Assembly: GCF_038024105.1 (NCBI RefSeq) | Contig: NZ_CP150661.1 | Location: 2,623,001-2,687,000 of the forward strand | Origin: Polaribacter butkevichii | GTDB taxonomy: Bacteria > Bacteroidota > Bacteroidia > Flavobacteriales > Flavobacteriaceae | Reading direction: 5' to 3' | DNA length: 64,000 bases | Translations under genes and position numbers: made by a program | The notes under the pieces: generated by a model | Told to the model about the DNA's origin: nothing | The model's input: the letters and a program-made list of their open reading frames with translations, nothing else | Database searches by the model: none | In this document: positions 22,452 to 29,226 of the stretch, piece by piece | How positions within the stretch are numbered: position 1 is the stretch's first letter | Layout: each line of letters starts with the position of its first letter

Positions 22452-23036
22452 TTAAAATTCAAATCCTAAATAGAGCTGCCATACTCTATTTTTTGGCTTG
22501 TCTTGGTCATAAACATCACTTTGACCTAAATGGTATCTTACTCCTAAACTTACGCCTCCATCACTCTTAAAACCGGTTCCTACATTTACGCCCCAATCTA
22601 AATTACTAGGTTCAAATTCTTCTGATGTATCATATAAAATAAAACCTGCATCAAAGGTTTCTTTGTGCGAAATTGAAAATCCTATTTGTGGTCCTGCTTC
22701 AATAAAAAAACTTTTTACAGGATATAATTTTAACATCAATGGTACATTTATATAATCTAACTTTTGTGTGTACGTTCCGTTATCATCTATAATTTTATAA
22801 CCTTGTTTAGAGTACAAAATTTCTGGCTGAATAGAAAGGAATTTACCAATGTAAGATTCGCCATAAATACCTATGTGATATCCGTGTAACCTACCCGTTT
22901 CTGAGCTTCCATCGAAACTAACTGAAGAGATATTATATCCTCCTTTAATACCCGCTGTAGCCCTATTTTTATCTTGTGCATTTACAGATAAAAGACCTGT
23001 AATTAATAATGCTATTGTTATATATAATGTTTTCAT
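22452..23036 (-). CDS. Outer-membrane beta-barrel protein, 194 aa
   Basis: A signal peptide (residues 1-20, ending SVNAQ) precedes a small barrel of alternating strands (GIKGGYNISSVSF, GYHIGIYGESYIG, FLSIQPEILYSKQGY, YINVPLMLKLYPV, FFIEAGPQIGFSI) ending in the aromatic VWQLYLGFEF expected for outer-membrane insertion. It matches the PorT/OMP_b-brl group common in Flavobacteria. An ECF-type promoter box lies just upstream (23081-23108), tying its expression to the sigma/anti-sigma system at 25.2-29.2 kb. Its function, whether pore, receptor or structural, is unknown. Confidence 0.85.
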   Translation of the reverse strand: MKTLYITIALLITGLLSVNAQDKNRATAGIKGGYNISSVSFDGSSETGRLHGYHIGIYGESYIGKFLSIQPEILYSKQGYKIIDDNGTYTQKLDYINVPLMLKLYPVKSFFIEAGPQIGFSISHKETFDAGFILYDTSEEFEPSNLDWGVNVGTGFKSDGGVSLGVRYHLGQSDVYDQDKPKNRVWQLYLGFEF

Positions 23037-23080
23037 TTTAAATAATTTTAAAGTTTATATTTATTGTTCTCGTATATAAG

Positions 23081-23108
23081 ACAACTCAACTTTATTTTAC
23101 CCTACCTT
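23081..23108 (-). promoter_or_regulatory. ECF-sigma promoter box, copy a (before beta-barrel gene)
   Basis: On the minus strand: AAGGTAGGGTAAA, 9 bases, AGTTGT. The same two blocks with the same 9-base spacer occur at 25088-25115, 25156-25183 and 25744-25771. The box ends 45 bases before the start codon at 23036. Confidence 0.8.
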
Positions 23109-23113
23109 TATTT

Positions 23114-23896
23114 TTACTTTCCGCCATTGGCTTTTAAATCTGCCAAACATTGTGCATCTAAAGTTGGTACTTGTCCGCCAGAAATCATGGTACCAATTCC
23201 TTGGCTAGTTTCTGCTGCCCAATACATTAAACAATCTTCTTCATCGCAATGCTTTGGATGTTCTGTATCTTCATGATCACTTTGTAACTCGGTTCCTAAA
23301 TTTGTTAACCCTAAAATATGGCCAAATTCGTGATGAATTACAGATGATTCTAATAAGCTTCTTTCTGGTTCAAAAGCACTGTTGCTTAAACCATGAATTG
23401 TTTCTTCGTAAATAACAAAAGAAGTGTTCCAATATGCAGAACCTAAAATTGCGCTAGAATTAGTATCACTAGAAGATTTACCATTGATAAATAATACCCA
23501 AACAGCAATTGTTGTATCAGAATTATAAGTAGTTCTGTTTGTTTTTTCTAAAGCTACTACTTCATCTAAAGTATAAACTTCTTTATTTGTAGCGGCTATT
23601 TCTTTAATACTAAATATTACTCCTTCTGGTTTGTTAGTTCTGTTAGTAATAAAGCTTTTAAAATTGTTTATGGCTGCATCAGAAGGCTTAAAACCTTCTA
23701 TATATGCAAGTTCTACAATCATTTTTTTAAAGGTATTTGCAGAAAGTAAATCGTTAGCAGAAGAACCTGTGGCTTGTCTATTTGTAGCTACATTAACGGT
23801 ATTACCTGTTTCTCCTTCTATTATATCGTCATTTTCTGACGAACAAGAAATAAGGATACTACTCACTAAAATTACACTTAAAAAAATATTTTTCAT
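23114..23896 (-). CDS. Zinc metalloprotease lipoprotein (metzincin-like)
   Basis: The signal segment ends SSILISC (Cys18), marking a lipoprotein. The zinc site is HEFGH at residues 189-193 with GLTNLGT following, a downstream histidine in SDHEDTEH as probable third ligand, and a Met-turn candidate in CLMYW, which also carries one of two nearby cysteines. This is the matrixin-like layout of a family common in Flavobacteria. Residues 50-170 form an unassigned prodomain-like region. It lies between two ECF-box genes on the same strand and has no box of its own, so it is probably read from the upstream lipoprotein transcript. Confidence 0.82.
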   Translation of the reverse strand: MKNIFLSVILVSSILISCSSENDDIIEGETGNTVNVATNRQATGSSANDLLSANTFKKMIVELAYIEGFKPSDAAINNFKSFITNRTNKPEGVIFSIKEIAATNKEVYTLDEVVALEKTNRTTYNSDTTIAVWVLFINGKSSSDTNSSAILGSAYWNTSFVIYEETIHGLSNSAFEPERSLLESSVIHHEFGHILGLTNLGTELQSDHEDTEHPKHCDEEDCLMYWAAETSQGIGTMISGGQVPTLDAQCLADLKANGGK

Positions 23897-23913
23897 TTTA
23901 CTTTTATTTAAAA

Positions 23914-23950
23914 CTTTACAACTAAAATTTTGGGAATAATAGTTGTAAAG
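23914..23950. other. Perfect 11-bp inverted repeat between lipoprotein and metalloprotease genes
   Basis: CTTTACAACTA and TAGTTGTAAAG are separated by 15 bases (AAATTTTGGGAATAA). There is no T run on the minus strand, so it is not a typical terminator. It could be an mRNA processing or stabilising hairpin, or an operator, between the two minus-strand genes. Confidence 0.55.
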
Positions 23951-23990
23951 TTATCATCAACTAACTAAAACCTACTACTACTTCTCCTTT

Positions 23991-25043
23991 TTAAATTTTC
24001 TTAAATGCTAAAGTAACAGAAGCATCTGTTTTGCTTTGTAATGTAATTAAGGTGTTACTAAAAGAGCTAATAACCCAATCATTTCCTAAAGCACTTAGTG
24101 CGGTATTACTAGCAAAATTAATATTTACAAAAGCTTCTGTTTCCGAACTTACCGTATACGTTCCTTCTACTTCTCCTAGTGCAGCATTAACTACATTTGT
24201 AGCCACAATTTTTAAATCGTTAGTAAATTCTATAGACCAATTTGCATAATCGTTTGCAGTATTCGCACCCGCTGTAATAAAAGTTTCTACTTTAAATTTT
24301 GTACCAGATAAAATAGCTTCAACCTCTGCTGCTGTAGTTGCTGCATCTTCTTTTTCATCTTCAAATTGAACACATTCTGAAATAGCATTTTGAAATTCTG
24401 CATCACTTTTAATTGTTACAGCAGTTCCGTTACTTAAAGTTGCATTTATTGGATAATTTACGGCAAATAACTCATCAGATTGTAAATCTGTCATAAACGT
24501 ATACAGTTGTTTTTTTGATTGTACAACCACACTTCCGGTTTGTTCTAAACTAATATCATAAGTTAACATGGTAACCGGAAAGTTAATATCTATACAAGAA
24601 ATTGCACCTTTTCCTTGTGCTTCTGCATTTTCACACTCTTGCTGTAAAGCATCAAATTCTGCTTGATTATTAACTTTTACTTCTGTATATTTACTTGTTT
24701 TAACACTAATTGGAAAATTAAAAGATACATTATCAGTATCGTTATTAAATTGTCCCATAATGTTTAAAACTGCAGAAAAATCTAATTTACTAATTAAGGT
24801 AATTTGTTGTCCGTTTACAGTAGCTGTTAAAGGAAATAATAATTCAGTACAAGAATTTCCGTCTAAAAAATCATCATCAGAACCATCATTTTGAGCTGCT
24901 CTTTCATAATTAGAAGCGGTTGGTGATGTAGATGAATTAGCATTTGGATTGGTACCTATTTCTTTGCTTTCTTCAGATTGACAAGAAGTAAATCCTAATA
25001 GTACTGTAAAAGCAATTGCTGTAATTAATTTTAATGTTTTCAT
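23991..25043 (-). CDS. Lipoprotein with two internal repeats and a lipocalin-like C-terminus
   Basis: From the ATG at 25043 (MKTLKLITAI) a signal ends at FTSC (Cys21). A disordered Ser/Asn/Asp linker leads to two related modules. Module 1 (about 65-137) begins CTELLFPLTATVNG and ends QAEFDALQQEC; module 2 (about 150-224) begins CIDINFPVTMLTY and ends DAEFQNAISEC, so each is bracketed by cysteines. Residues 235-350 resemble a lipocalin-like barrel (GTKFKVETFI, WSIEFTNDLKIVA, GTYTV, WVISSFSNTLITL). Two tandem ECF boxes precede it, so it is probably the main target of the sigma factor. An earlier ATG at 25091 overlaps the promoter and is rejected. Binding function is inferred only. Confidence 0.78.
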   Translation of the reverse strand: MKTLKLITAIAFTVLLGFTSCQSEESKEIGTNPNANSSTSPTASNYERAAQNDGSDDDFLDGNSCTELLFPLTATVNGQQITLISKLDFSAVLNIMGQFNNDTDNVSFNFPISVKTSKYTEVKVNNQAEFDALQQECENAEAQGKGAISCIDINFPVTMLTYDISLEQTGSVVVQSKKQLYTFMTDLQSDELFAVNYPINATLSNGTAVTIKSDAEFQNAISECVQFEDEKEDAATTAAEVEAILSGTKFKVETFITAGANTANDYANWSIEFTNDLKIVATNVVNAALGEVEGTYTVSSETEAFVNINFASNTALSALGNDWVISSFSNTLITLQSKTDASVTLAFKKI

Positions 25044-25087
25044 TTTAATAAATTTTATAATTAATGTTTCTTGTTTATATGAGTAAA

Positions 25088-25115
25088 ACAACTTTGTTTT
25101 ATTTTACCCTACCTT
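25088..25115 (-). promoter_or_regulatory. ECF-sigma promoter box, copy b (before lipoprotein gene)
   Basis: Minus strand: AAGGTAGGGTAAA, 9 bases, AGTTGT, then TTTAC. It sits 45 bases before the start codon at 25043, the same distance as copy a from its gene. Confidence 0.82.
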
Positions 25116-25155
25116 TTTTTTAGAATGATTATTTTTTTGTCATTCTGTAAGTAAA

Positions 25156-25183
25156 ACAACTAAACATTTATTTACCCTACCTT
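25156..25183 (-). promoter_or_regulatory. ECF-sigma promoter box, copy c (second, upstream)
   Basis: Minus strand: AAGGTAGGGTAAA, 9 bases, AGTTGTTTTAC. It lies 68 bases upstream of copy b in the same orientation, giving the lipoprotein gene tandem promoters. It points away from the sigma-factor gene that starts at 25225. Confidence 0.78.
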
Positions 25184-25224
25184 TGTTTTAATTTTTTTTT
25201 ATTTTTATTATTTAAAACCCCTAT

Positions 25225-25734
25225 ATGACTAATAAATCTCTTTGTAACGAAATTTATTTTAATGAGTTTTACACTTCTCATATACAATCTGCAAGTAATT
25301 TTGCATTCTATAAGTCTGGTGATAAAAATACGTCTTTAGATTTAGCACAAGAAGCATTTATAAAAATATGGGAACATTGCGCTAAAGTCGATTTTACGAA
25401 AGCAAAGTCTTACTTATTTACAGTTATTAACAATCTTTTTCTTAATAAAGTAAAGCATCAAAAGGTAGTTTTTGAATATGCAAAAAGTAGTCCTTATTTA
25501 GATGTAGATAACCAAAGTCCAGATTATTTATTAGAAGAAGAAGAATTTAAAAACAAGCTAAAAAATGCCATTGCAGGTTTAACAGTAGGCGAGAGGGAAG
25601 TTTTTTTAATGAATAGAATTGATGGAAAAAAATACCGGGAAATTGCAGAAACGTTAGAAATTTCTCAAAAAGCAGTAGAAAAACGAATGTCATCAGCATT
25701 AAAAAAATTAAGAACTAACATAGACGGAATTTAA
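25225..25734 (+). CDS. ECF RNA polymerase sigma factor, FecI-like
   Basis: This 169-residue extracytoplasmic-function sigma factor has region 2 (LDLAQEAFIKIWEHC, then AKSYLFTVINNLFLNKVK), which melts and reads the -10 element, and region 4 (LTVGEREVFLMNRIDGKKYREIAETLEISQKAVEKRMSSALKKL), the -35-binding helix-turn-helix. The next two genes encode a FecR anti-sigma factor and a TonB receptor with an STN domain, the standard cell-surface signalling arrangement. Its likely promoter box occurs four times within 2.7 kb but not in front of this gene in the forward direction. Confidence 0.93.
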   Translation: MTNKSLCNEIYFNEFYTSHIQSASNFAFYKSGDKNTSLDLAQEAFIKIWEHCAKVDFTKAKSYLFTVINNLFLNKVKHQKVVFEYAKSSPYLDVDNQSPDYLLEEEEFKNKLKNAIAGLTVGEREVFLMNRIDGKKYREIAETLEISQKAVEKRMSSALKKLRTNIDGI

Positions 25735-25743
25735 TACCAATGT

Positions 25744-25771
25744 AAGGTAGGGTAAACTACGTATTAGTTGT
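25744..25771 (+). promoter_or_regulatory. ECF-sigma promoter box, copy d (before anti-sigma/receptor operon)
   Basis: AAGGTAGGGTAAA, 9 bases, AGTTGTTAC on the plus strand, in the 59-base gap between the sigma and anti-sigma genes. Transcription would begin a few bases before the FecR start at 25794, allowing the anti-sigma factor and receptor to be induced by the sigma factor. Confidence 0.8.
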
Positions 25772-25793
25772 TACATATATAGAAGTACAAAAA

Positions 25794-26708
25794 ATGGAAA
25801 ACGAAAACGACATCTTAAAATGGCTAAACAGAGATATTTCTGATGAAGAATTGACGCGTTTAAAAGAAACAAAAGACTTTACTACTCTAGAAAAAATTGC
25901 ACATTATTCCACGCAAATAGAAACACCAAAAGTAGATGTAGAAAAAGCCCTTGCGGACTTAAAATTAAAGACAAAAAACACCACTAAAAAAGGCAAAGTT
26001 GTTTCCTTTAATTTTAAAAAATTCTACAAATATGCTGCTGCAATTGTTGTATTGTTAACAACATCGTATTTTCTACTTTTTAATAATGAAGCTAATTTTA
26101 AAACCCAATTTGCACAAACAAAAAGTTTTAATTTACCAGATAATTCTGAAGTAATTTTAAACGCAAACTCAGAAATTACCTATTCTAAAAAAGATTGGAA
26201 AAATAGTAGAAATTTAACCCTAAAGGGAGAAGCTTTTTTTAAGGTTGAAAAAGGAAAAAAGTTTACGGTAAATACTCAAATAGGAGCAGTAACCGTGCTT
26301 GGTACACAGTTTAACGTAAAAGAAAGAACTAATTATTTTGAAGTAAAAACTTACGAAGGTTTGGTAAGTGTTGCTTATAAAGATACCCTTGTAAAACTAC
26401 CAAAAGGTACTATTTTTAAAGTAGTTAATGGTGTTATTGATACCAACAATACGTTTGATATTAGCGAGAAATCTTGGTTGCAAAAAGAGTCTAATTTTAA
26501 AAGTACTGCTTTGCGTTTTGTATTGCAAGAAATAGAAAATCAGTTTGATTATACGATTGAAACTAAAAACATCGATTTAGATATTTTATACTCTGGTGGT
26601 TTTACACATTCAGATATAAATGTAGCCTTAAAATCTATTACAATTCCGCTGCAATTGTCTTATAAAATTGATGGTAAAAAAATTACTATCTATACTTATG
26701 ATCACTAA
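25794..26708 (+). CDS. FecR-family anti-sigma factor
   Basis: This 304-residue single-pass inner-membrane protein has a cytoplasmic N-terminus (residues 1-75, Lys/Glu-rich) that would bind the sigma factor, a transmembrane helix (YAAAIVVLLTTSYFLLF, about 80-96) and a periplasmic FecR domain (FNLPDNSEVILNANSEITYSK through GEAFFKVEKGKKFTVNTQIGAVTVLGTQFNV). The C-terminal DUF4974-like domain (LRFVLQEIENQFDYTIETKN) contacts the receptor's STN domain. The receptor gene start overlaps its end by 11 bases, which indicates translational coupling. Confidence 0.93.
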   Translation: MENENDILKWLNRDISDEELTRLKETKDFTTLEKIAHYSTQIETPKVDVEKALADLKLKTKNTTKKGKVVSFNFKKFYKYAAAIVVLLTTSYFLLFNNEANFKTQFAQTKSFNLPDNSEVILNANSEITYSKKDWKNSRNLTLKGEAFFKVEKGKKFTVNTQIGAVTVLGTQFNVKERTNYFEVKTYEGLVSVAYKDTLVKLPKGTIFKVVNGVIDTNNTFDISEKSWLQKESNFKSTALRFVLQEIENQFDYTIETKNIDLDILYSGGFTHSDINVALKSITIPLQLSYKIDGKKITIYTYDH

Positions 26709-29226
26709 AATACGTTTTCTTTTATGTTGTTTATTATTGATGACAAGTGTTGTTTTTACTCAGAATTCTTCTGATAAAATTGCACTTTCTACCTTGCTAT
26801 CAACATTAGAAAAAAGTTACGATATTAAGTTTTCTTATTCAGATACTGATGTAAAAGACATTTTTATACCACAACCAAAACAAGGAATTTCTATTGATGA
26901 ATTATTATCATTTTTAAACAAAAAAACATTTTTACAGTTTAAAACTTTAGATAATAGATACGTAACCGTTTCATTTTTAAACAAAACCATTGCTATTTGC
27001 GGTACCGTTTTAGATGCCAAAACGCTAGAACCTTTATTACTAACTTCTGTAAAAGTAAATGGCTATAAATTAGGAACAACAACCAATAATAACGGTGTTT
27101 TTCATTTAAAAAATGTGCCTGTAAATGCTACTTTAAATATTTCTTTTATCGGTTTTAAAACTAAAAATTTTGCGGCTAAAGAATTGTTTTTACCCAGTTG
27201 TAAACAATTGTTTTTAGAAGAAGCTTCAGAGCAATTATCAGAAATTATAATGCCGCGTTTTTTAACTGCTGGTTTGCAAAAAAGTACTGATGGAAGTACG
27301 GTTTTAAATACCGAAAAATTCGGAATTTTACCGGGTTTAATAGAACCTGATATTTTACAAACTATTAAAATTTTACCAGGTGTAGAAAGTGTAAACGAAA
27401 GTATTTCTAATATTAACGTTAGAGGCGGTACAAACGACCAAAATTTAATTCTTTGGGATGGAATAAAAATGTACCATGCTGGTCATTTTTTCGGGCTTAT
27501 TTCTGCTTATAATCCCTATTTAACAAAGAAGGTTTCTGTGACTAAAAATGGTACAAGTAGTACTTTTTCAGACGGAGTTTCATCTACCATAAACATGGAA
27601 ACTTCTAACAGAATTACCAATAAATTTTCTGGTGGCGCCGGTTTTAATTTATTAAGTGCAGATGCTTTTGTACAAGTACCTCTAAAAGAGAATTTAGAAG
27701 TACATATTTCTGCAAGAAGATCATTTACAGATGTTATTAACACACCAACATATAACAATTATTTCTCTAGAAGTTTTCAGGATAATTCTATTTCTTCAAA
27801 TATTGTAAATAACACAGAATCAGATTTTTATTTCTACGATTATTCTTTTAAAGTTTTATATGATGTTAATTATAATCATGCCATAAGAACTAATTTTATC
27901 CACATTAAAAATAATTTAGATTATAAAGAACAATACACTTCTAATAATACACTTATTGAAGAAAATAGTGCTTTAAAACAAGAAAATGTAGGTGCAAAAA
28001 TTAGTTGGGATGCAAATTGGAATGCCAAATTTTCTACTACATTATCTGCCTTTTATTCAGATTATAAAATTAATTCATCAGATTTTAATAATGATACTGA
28101 TCAGTTTCAAACGCAGTTTAATAATGTCTTAGAAACAGAAATAAAACTGAATTCTAAATACGAATTTTCTGATGTTTTATTTTTTACTAACGGATTGGTA
28201 TTTAATGAAATAGGCATTAGAAATACCACCACTGTAAACGCACCAACTTTTTCTACTACAGAAAAAAAAGTGTTATTAAAAAGTGCTTTTTATTCTGAAA
28301 TTGAATATCAAAAAAACAATACTTATGCTAGGTTTGGAGTACGTGCAAACTATTTTGATAAGTTTAATAAATTTGTAATTGAACCTAGAATTAATATAAG
28401 ACAACAGTTAAATACTGCCTTTTCTTTAAAATTAGAAGGTGAATTAAAAAACCAAACAACGGCGCAAAAAGTAGATTTTGAAGAAAATTTTTTAGGCATC
28501 GAAAAACGAAGATGGATTCTTTCTGACGATGAAAATATCCCTATAGTAAAAAGCAAACAAGTATCTTTTGGTACTGCCTATGCTAAAGATAAATTATACG
28601 TAGATATTACAAGTTTTTATAAAAAAGTAGACGGAATTACAGCAGCAAATCAAGGTTTTTACAACAACATACAAACCTTTAATTCTATTGGTAATTACGA
28701 GGTAAAAGGGGTTGAATTTTTAGTAAATAAACAAACTGAAAATATTAGTACTTGGTTAAGTTATACCTATTCTAAAAATGAGTATTCTTTCGATATTTTT
28801 TCTCCAGAAACCTTTGCCAATAGTTTAGATATTTCTCACTCTGTAAGTGCTGCATTTAATTACAGTTTTACTAAAAAATTAAAAGTGTCTTTTGGCGGTG
28901 TTTTACGTTCTGGTAAACCCTATACAAAACCTGTTCTAGGAAATGAAACCATACAAAACGGAAATAGAACCATTGTAAATTACGACAATCCTAACCAAGA
29001 AAATTTAGCTAATTTCTTTAGATTAGATCTTTCTGGAAGCTATAAATTCGATTTTTCTGATGCCTTAAAAGCAACTATTCGTCTTGGTTTTACCAACATT
29101 ACAGATAAAAAAAATACAATAGATTCTTATTATGTTGTTGATGATAGTAGCCAAAATAATGTAAGAAGAGTAGACAATTATTCACTGCCTTTTACACCTA
29201 ATTTAAGTTTTAGAGTCCGTTTTTAA
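26698..29226 (+). CDS. TonB-dependent outer-membrane receptor with STN signalling domain
   Basis: Domains in order: signal peptide (1-22), STN domain (about 30-95, LSTLLSTLEKSYDIKFSYSD), a carboxypeptidase-D regulatory-like domain (about 100-180, GTVLDAKTLEPLLLTSVKVNG), a plug (about 215-320, with NVRGGTNDQNLILWDGI) and a 22-strand-type barrel to the terminal FSFRVRF-like aromatic end (NLSFRVRF). The STN domain signals through FecR to the ECF sigma factor. There is no SusD partner, so uptake of a peptide, siderophore or cofactor is more likely than glycan import, but the ligand is unknown. I chose the ATG at 26698 (MITKIRFLLCC), which overlaps the fecR stop. Confidence 0.92.
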   Translation: MITKIRFLLCCLLLMTSVVFTQNSSDKIALSTLLSTLEKSYDIKFSYSDTDVKDIFIPQPKQGISIDELLSFLNKKTFLQFKTLDNRYVTVSFLNKTIAICGTVLDAKTLEPLLLTSVKVNGYKLGTTTNNNGVFHLKNVPVNATLNISFIGFKTKNFAAKELFLPSCKQLFLEEASEQLSEIIMPRFLTAGLQKSTDGSTVLNTEKFGILPGLIEPDILQTIKILPGVESVNESISNINVRGGTNDQNLILWDGIKMYHAGHFFGLISAYNPYLTKKVSVTKNGTSSTFSDGVSSTINMETSNRITNKFSGGAGFNLLSADAFVQVPLKENLEVHISARRSFTDVINTPTYNNYFSRSFQDNSISSNIVNNTESDFYFYDYSFKVLYDVNYNHAIRTNFIHIKNNLDYKEQYTSNNTLIEENSALKQENVGAKISWDANWNAKFSTTLSAFYSDYKINSSDFNNDTDQFQTQFNNVLETEIKLNSKYEFSDVLFFTNGLVFNEIGIRNTTTVNAPTFSTTEKKVLLKSAFYSEIEYQKNNTYARFGVRANYFDKFNKFVIEPRINIRQQLNTAFSLKLEGELKNQTTAQKVDFEENFLGIEKRRWILSDDENIPIVKSKQVSFGTAYAKDKLYVDITSFYKKVDGITAANQGFYNNIQTFNSIGNYEVKGVEFLVNKQTENISTWLSYTYSKNEYSFDIFSPETFANSLDISHSVSAAFNYSFTKKLKVSFGGVLRSGKPYTKPVLGNETIQNGNRTIVNYDNPNQENLANFFRLDLSGSYKFDFSDALKATIRLGFTNITDKKNTIDSYYVVDDSSQNNVRRVDNYSLPFTPNLSFRVRF

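Follow-up and report, generated by a model that had tools for sequence, protein, structure and literature searches.

In the Fec system of Escherichia coli, cell-surface signalling involves an extracytoplasmic function (ECF) sigma factor (FecI), a FecR-type anti-sigma factor and a TonB-dependent receptor with an N-terminal extension (FecA). The same three components are encoded in a stretch of 64,000 nucleotides from Polaribacter butkevichii (contig NZ_CP150661.1; hereafter the window), where a short, precisely spaced sequence element, called the box here, precedes several cell-surface genes. We class the locus as a variant of Fec-type surface signalling, and its promoter code and a microprotein found in many relatives are the interesting parts. 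The receptor gene of Fec lies under the sigma factor's promoter, as stated in the excerpted text of PMC9249621, and the same is predicted from the box for our locus. The E. coli fecIR genes are transcribed by sigma-70 and are not autoregulated (PMC9249621, in excerpt). Unlike in Fec, fecR is here grouped with the receptor gene behind the box and apart from the sigma gene, and the predicted targets, among which no iron transport genes were seen, comprise a protease, lipoproteins and a His/Cys-rich protein.

In the Has haem-signalling system, which comes from a different phylum, hasS is the anti-sigma gene. HasI transcribes hasS, and hasI is not autoregulated (PMC9249621, in excerpt); our locus is alike in that the anti-sigma gene, and not the sigma gene, stands behind the sigma factor's predicted promoter. 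It differs from Has in its other targets and in having the receptor gene behind the same box as fecR. The ECF systems of Bacteroides belong to the same phylum as our locus and also have envelope or nutrient targets. Among them, the Dma proteins appear from their name to be single proteins spanning both membranes, whereas FecR and the receptor are here separate proteins. Das and Dma form sigma/anti-sigma pairs (PMC13088901, in excerpt), and SigW-1 and SigH-1 have been given -30/-10 promoters, those controlled by SigW-1 having TGTT near -10 in a motif that was not significant (PMC12596196, in excerpt). No TAGGGTAAA -35 element is given for these systems in the excerpted text of the two papers. 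In the same family, motif SM6 of Flavobacterium psychrophilum defines a class of ECF-type promoters that have been mapped and carry CGT at -10 (PMC9723704, in excerpt); unlike the box described here, it drives several type IX secretion system (T9SS) genes, and the excerpted text, logos aside, holds no TAGGG.

Bacteroidota genomes encode many ECF sigma factors, and promoter sequences are known for few of them. According to excerpts of a 2020 paper, no motif was then known for any alternative ECF sigma factor of Bacteroides thetaiotaomicron (PMC7366714), and in 2025 a motif was proposed for SigH-1, together with a non-significant one for SigW-1 (PMC12596196, in excerpt). The excerpted text of PMC7406223 holds nothing on FecI-type promoters. 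Among the papers listed in literature searches we found none on this locus, and among the matches listed for the motif letters none looked relevant, which is not a claim that the motif is unpublished.

Four boxes and a FecI-like sigma factor

The element AAGGTAGGGTAAA-N9-AGTTGT occurs four times in the window with 0 mismatches each, and each copy points at the gene for which the earlier note had named it. One box stands before the beta-barrel gene (exact match 23081-23108, extended 23077..23108, (-) strand) and two stand in tandem before a lipoprotein gene (proximal, 25088-25115, extended 25084..25115, (-); distal, 25156-25183, extended 25152..25183, (-)), and the fourth, which reads TAGGGTAAA-N9-AGTTGT-TACA, precedes fecR and the receptor gene (25744-25771, extended 25744..25775, (+)). 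Their 3' tails are CTTA, TTTA, TTTA and, before fecR, TACA. Based on conservation and covariation, we consider it very probable that these boxes supply the -35 and -10 of promoters recognised by the ECF sigma factor encoded at 25225..25734 (+). Both the -10 (TGTC or TGTT) and the interval between it and the -35 are as expected for ECF promoters.

Because two of them stand in tandem, the boxes occupy three gaps and not the four independent ones first counted. At up to three mismatches the chance level is 0.02 matches per shuffled window, and four matches were reached in 0 of 100 shuffles. The genome-wide search that had been proposed (4,079,563 bases) returned the four window copies as the only exact matches and 0 for the reversed control; with up to three mismatches there were nine sites, compared with three control sites. 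The best extra copy, at genome position 1,661,751, has GGTAGGGTAAA-N9-AGTTGT exactly and differs in two of the AAGG bases; it lies 44 nt upstream of another secreted-protein gene (147 aa, signal-peptide-like start). A one-mismatch site elsewhere in this genome (L292) was rejected as a target and ascribed to chance, since it lies inside an open reading frame (ORF).

The protein proposed to recognise the box is FecI-like, has 169 aa and is a protein with Pfam Sigma70_r2 and Sigma70_r4_2 above cut-off, and thus with the regions 2 and 4 only that define ECF sigma factors. It scores 117.5 bits against TIGR02985 (Bacteroidetes sigma-70 subfamily), just below the cut-off of 126.4, and 47.2 bits against NF041727, the E. 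coli FecI equivalog (cut-off 260). The closest named relatives of its locus are in Polaribacter. No box faces the sigma gene in the window, as the earlier note had observed. The gene has a putative housekeeping -7 element at 25178..25185 (+), the TA of which is shared with the core of the distal box. This element, TAnnTTTG, is the housekeeping -7 of Bacteroidota (PMC7366714, in excerpt). It was found at -75 to -25 of the sigma gene in 30 of the 80 related loci described below, compared with 4.4% in base shuffles. In 18 of the 80 loci, as in the window, its TA also belongs to the core of the distal box, which is read on the other strand.

Recurrence of the box in related genomes

Sigma orthologues, defined by an identity of at least 62% (the next step being 58% and below), were present in 36 of the 397 genomes of our family survey. 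We compared stretches of 15 kb (two shorter) round the 35 sigma orthologues of other genomes and five lower-identity loci, and a set of 80 named loci kept of 226 found, from Polaribacter, Tenacibaculum, Flavobacterium, Winogradskyella, Olleya, Lacinutrix, Algibacter, Tamlana, Kordia and other genera. Two alignments held 24 copies each (one of them on the lipoprotein), that of the His/Cys-rich protein 15 sequences, and one sigma alignment 18 of the 36 orthologues.

One arrangement recurs in the orthologous loci: sigma, fecR and receptor genes follow one another, and the lipoprotein, metzincin and, in most cases, barrel genes diverge from them. The comparison among relatives that had been suggested bore out the boxes, which recur with a spacing of 9 at the orthologous genes in many Flavobacteriaceae genera. 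In the 80-locus set the conserved consensus is (G)TAGGGTAAA-N9-RRKTGT-CTTA. The 9-nt spacer keeps its length and varies in its letters, being AT-rich with few fixed ones, and the fecR start codon lies at a near-constant distance of ~46 nt from the first core base. The box as originally drawn holds in its core and N9, but not in its AAGG flank, of which only the last G is largely conserved, and its 3' end had been placed 4 bases short, omitting CTTA.

Placement at specific genes was counted in both sets. When one mismatch in the core was allowed within 250 nt upstream, the window together with the 35 orthologous loci gave a core for 35 of 37 fecR genes, 37 of 39 lipoprotein genes and 18 of 18 His/Cys-rich genes, compared with 0 of 37 receptor genes, 2 of 31 barrel genes (one being the window's), 10 of 35 metzincin genes (mostly hairpin-associated) and 2 of 37 sigma genes (one a contig-edge artefact, L110). 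Boxes belonging to the metzincin gene itself were rejected, because seven of its ten near-core matches are TATGGTAAA, most just before a hairpin. With the loose threshold used for the 80-locus set (one mismatch each in core and TGT, up to 300 nt upstream), boxes precede fecR in 79 of 81 copies, the lipoprotein gene in 76 of 83 (30 with two or more) and the His/Cys-rich gene in 16 of 16, while the genes without a box of their own gave 5 near-boxes in 310 (barrel 0/70, metzincin 2/78, sigma 1/81, receptor 2/81, the latter two without exact TGT). When an exact TGT is demanded, 79 loci retain a fecR box, 67 a lipoprotein box and 16 a His/Cys-rich box, while none of the five near-boxes at the other genes is left; a further four boxes of the lipoprotein gene have GGGTCTTA or ACGTCTTA. 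The metzincin gene has no promoter of this kind of its own, and the barrel box, although present here, is so far peculiar to this genome, since 0 of 70 relatives carry one.

At the scale of the family, GGTAGGGTAAA-N9-AGTTGT was found in 20 of the 397 genomes, with 32 sites counted against one control site. The form TAGGGTAAA-N12-TGTYTTA gave 146 sites in 79 of the 397 genomes, compared with 4 reversed-control sites counted, and was present in 35 of the 36 sigma-orthologue genomes as against 44 of the 361 others.

The strongest evidence that the box itself is kept, and not just its neighbourhood, comes from dispersed copies of a fifth target, the gene of a secreted His/Cys-rich protein, which in this genome lies ~1 Mb from the window. 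A search of 40 genomes detected this gene in 26, namely in 25 of the 36 that have a sigma orthologue and in one of the four others, and upstream of all 26 copies stands a box that departs from the motif at no more than two of 16 positions. Eighteen of the orthologous loci also contain the gene, and seven copies lie away from the sigma locus (genomes G000, G131, G200, G323, G024, G162 and G002), so that the regulon is not the purely local one it had been taken for. Residues H94, C98, C102 and H104 are invariant in the 15 aligned sequences and further histidines nearly so, a pattern that suggests metal binding.

The -10 base and residue 67 of the sigma factor

Twenty paralogous loci all combine sigma, fecR and receptor genes (20/20), with a distant lipoprotein homologue in 14 of them, and their boxes mostly read TGTTTTA. 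We related all 146 motif sites to 126 sigma matches among those listed. Sites within 6 kb of a sigma orthologue read TGTCTTA in 63 cases and TGTTTTA in two, both in the window's genome, while at listed paralogues, with the same limit of 6 kb, there were 22 sites with TGTTTTA and one with TGTCTTA. Among 38 further sites in genomes without the orthologue, T stands in 37, and some of these 38, having no listed sigma gene nearby, may adjoin unlisted paralogues. Loss of a paralogue in the window's genome was rejected as the origin of its T, which is a trait of the Polaribacter clade: the exact-TGT boxes of the 12 named loci of this clade have T in 30 cases and C in 4, with at least one T box in each locus, compared with C in 159 and T in 0 cases at the other loci.

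Sigma residue 67, which by our own reading lies in region 2.4, is Val/Ile/Leu in all 13 Polaribacter-clade sequences including the window's. The remaining 68 orthologues all have Thr/Ser there, and 20 of 20 paralogues have Val or Ile. The 68 are labelled C-type by clade; 67 of them have boxes, all with a C majority. The -10 base (C or T) covaries with this residue, which is a candidate for the determinant of the base on the strength of a correlation that includes two inferred switches. A counter-case is the paralogue L268, which has Val67 yet one TGTCTTA site. Residues 10, 46 and 88 also fully separate the two orthologue groups, but only residue 46 parallels 67 in the paralogues (17 of 20 Ile); because it behaves nearly alike, residue 67 was preferred in part for its position in region 2.4. 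Residue 62 was rejected as a specificity residue, four C-type loci (L172, L178, L192 and L217) carrying the T-type residue. Phylogenetically, the C-type orthologues enclose the Polaribacter clade, with Kordia as the sister of the latter (support 95/87 in the tree), and because of this nesting the C-type group needs two changes; the nesting hangs on two long-branched rows of unsure placement, Kordia (L231) and L217. The region-4.2 stretch KAVEKR is the majority in both orthologue groups and in the paralogues, in agreement with their common -35. Two further observations concern the paralogous modules: one has a box that does face its sigma gene (L276:6610, (-)), unlike the orthologues, and in one genome a second, paralogous sigma-fecR-receptor-lipoprotein module adjoins the first (L089:10042-14928).

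The recurrence of the box at orthologous genes, its co-occurrence with the sigma orthologue and the covariation at -10 support the earlier note's attribution of the boxes to one sigma factor, most likely the FecI-like protein at 25225. An operator for an ordinary DNA-binding regulator might likewise be conserved in front of several genes, but the consensus has no visible dyad symmetry, its spacing is fixed at 9 and its orientation is fixed toward the gene, the distance to the fecR start codon is short and near-constant, and the element both tracks the sigma orthologue in its presence and covaries with a residue of sigma region 2, so that we regard an operator as very improbable. Slightly more remote still is the idea that the boxes are read by another ECF sigma factor of this genome; seven further proteins match sigma 25225, and paralogous modules elsewhere have the same -35, but the seven are far relatives (25-31% identity), and it is with the orthologue that the motif is associated, both within loci and in presence across genomes. 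Four 28-mers identical at 19 fixed positions within 2.7 kb might finally be a repeat spread by duplication and devoid of regulatory role. This is hardly credible, since the spacers differ between copies and the relatives keep the placement at specific genes, with none at the neighbours.

Some results weigh against promoters read by sigma 25225. Among the fecR copies two of 81 fell short of the loose threshold, as did seven of 83 for the lipoprotein, where one call or more (L194) is probably not genuine. One genome with a sigma orthologue (G244) lacks the exact motif, and 20 motif sites in sigma-orthologue genomes lie more than 6 kb from, or off the contig of, the listed sigma genes, some being in paralogous modules or broken contigs and some without a clear target. 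In the P. butkevichii genome, the refined motif at up to two mismatches gives about as many control sites (six, reversed) as matches (seven, namely the five above, one inside an ORF and one other); the weaker sites are therefore not separable from chance, and no further target is claimed here. The sigma -7 element occurs in only 30 of the 80 loci, and the 80-locus and 36-locus sets overlap in species, so that their tallies are not independent.

Genes of the predicted regulon and a proposed circuit

The FecR-like membrane anti-sigma factor (25794..26708, (+)) is encoded beside the sigma gene, as in Fec-type systems. It matches PF04773 with 65.3 bits (cut-off 24), PF16344 (FecR_C) with 32.5 bits (cut-off 24.4) and PDB 4m0n, a putative anti-sigma factor, with E 2.9e-14, and a hydrophobic segment is visible. 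The TonB-dependent receptor/transducer (26698..29226, (+)), which has no box of its own, comprises a FecR_C/STN-like region, CarbopepD_reg_2 and a plug. The plug (PF07715) is above cut-off and residues 28-91 resemble FecR_C at E 4e-4, below cut-off, and Pfam at E 0.01 gave no STN and no receptor-barrel model for this protein.

The lipoprotein (23991..25043, (-)) has 350 aa, no Pfam family above cut-off and, in a structure model, a C-terminal lipocalin-like barrel. A putative attenuator, an inverted repeat with 13-bp arms read by eye (23912..23952, (-)), lies between its gene and that of the metzincin. The gap folds better than shuffles (z -2.1), the minimum-energy fold pairing other stretches than the inverted repeat, and a terminator-like hairpin occurs in 63 of 74 homologous gaps; hairpins were found in 0 of 68 metzincin-barrel gaps, which are a weak control, being short (median 33) and scanned only when longer than 30 bases. 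The metzincin (23114..23896, (-)) is a lipoprotein-type archaemetzincin-like peptidase with HEFGH...HCX4CXM and no Pfam family above cut-off. It shares HExxHxxG and HCX4CXM and, in a model, the fold with archaemetzincins, and it scores 15.9 bits against NF033823 (archaemetzincin, cut-off 145). The outer-membrane beta-barrel protein (22452..23036, (-)) matches Pfam OMP_b-brl_2 at E 1.8e-19. The lipoprotein and protease recall the potempin-KLIKK pairs of Tannerella in fold model and gene order, and many lipocalin-like proteins match as well; unlike the small lipoprotein genes of those pairs (360-550 bp), the one here measures 1053 nt, and the protease differs.

Other boxes were noted away from these genes. 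A genome outside the 36 with a sigma orthologue has a His/Cys-rich homologue behind a T-type box (L288). In four relatives (L282, L283, L284 and L287) dispersed boxes also precede the gene of a small protein, homologous among them, which measures 106-149 aa, has a hydrophobic segment at its N terminus and may be another regulon member, and, in two relatives, genes of thermolysin-type (Peptidase_M4) proteases (L285:1094-3001, (+); L286:1-2031, (-)). Boxes at seven loci have no long ORF adjoining (L018, L019, L026, L031, L280, L281 and L291) and may mark sigma-controlled small RNAs; L280 and L281 are alike, and L291 has a terminator-like hairpin ~110 nt downstream of the box. Rfam at gathering thresholds gave nothing in six loci, L018, L019, L026 and L031 included.

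In many relatives, the distal box lies ~165 nt before the proximal box and is followed by a microprotein ORF of 30-42 codons, which in most starts 26-30 nt after CTTA. Examples between tandem boxes are L199:8740-8853 (-) and L171:8788-8886 (-), with 16 further loci. A profile from 12 of these ORFs found members at the same place in L093 (5e-13), L090 (4e-8), L079 (2e-7), L096 (6e-6) and L169 (0.007), with a near-copy in L180, and nothing better than E 0.12 elsewhere among 14,168 small ORFs of 120 loci. The ratio of nonsynonymous to synonymous polymorphism (pN/pS) is 0.20-0.81 for ten pairs of five sequences. The peptide, too short for the usual gene lists, has one hydrophobic stretch, and in 8 of 18 cases the next core begins with the TAG that ends the ORF. 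The tandem boxes of Polaribacter are ~68 nt apart, and no microprotein ORF was found between them there, the window included, so that the window has a distal promoter without a gene.

We propose that the sigma gene would be transcribed apart from its targets, plausibly from the housekeeping TAnnTTTG promoter. At the inner membrane, the FecR-like protein would keep the sigma factor from acting until the receptor, via its N-terminal signalling region, relays a signal from outside, a model of restraint and relay taken from known Fec-type systems (PMC9249621, in excerpt; PMC11637429, abstract). The freed sigma factor would turn on fecR and the receptor gene, giving negative feedback plus more receptor, and the lipoprotein gene, from which read-through past the putative attenuator would yield less of the archaemetzincin-like protease and the barrel protein; in this genome the barrel gene would additionally use its own box. 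It would also turn on the distant gene of the secreted, possibly metal-binding His/Cys-rich protein and, in many relatives, that of a tiny single-helix membrane protein. The layout suggests that the sigma factor drives its own restraint and the receptor but not itself, as HasI drives hasS, and since the distal box overlaps the putative -7 element of the sigma gene, active sigma may block the promoter of its own gene. Our best guess at the physiology is an envelope proteolysis system, the outputs of which would bind and cleave envelope proteins or peptides; a role of the lipocalin-type lipoprotein as ligand binder or as inhibitor partner of the protease is speculation.

These elements can be joined in a more tentative reading, which we offer as possible rather than probable. 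Paralogous Flavobacteriaceae modules would share a -35 (TAGGGTAAA) and be kept apart largely by one -10 base, C (TGTCTTA) being read by Thr/Ser67 and T (TGTTTTA) by Val/Ile/Leu67, and the Polaribacter clade would have reverted to T/Val from within the C/Thr group. In many relatives the regulon would add the single-helix microprotein, with a stop codon often inside the next promoter and its own promoter overlapping that of the sigma gene, so that the sigma factor would turn off the gene that encodes it and at the same time produce a membrane peptide, which may tune FecR.

Overall, the locus offers a well-conserved promoter, a small defined regulon and a directly testable candidate for a one-base/one-residue specificity switch, and it points to an envelope protease system. 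Both this marine bacterium and many related ones carry one precisely spaced element, very probably a promoter, in front of a few cell-surface genes, those of a lipoprotein and a receptor included, and the element is most likely read by one dedicated regulator encoded among them.

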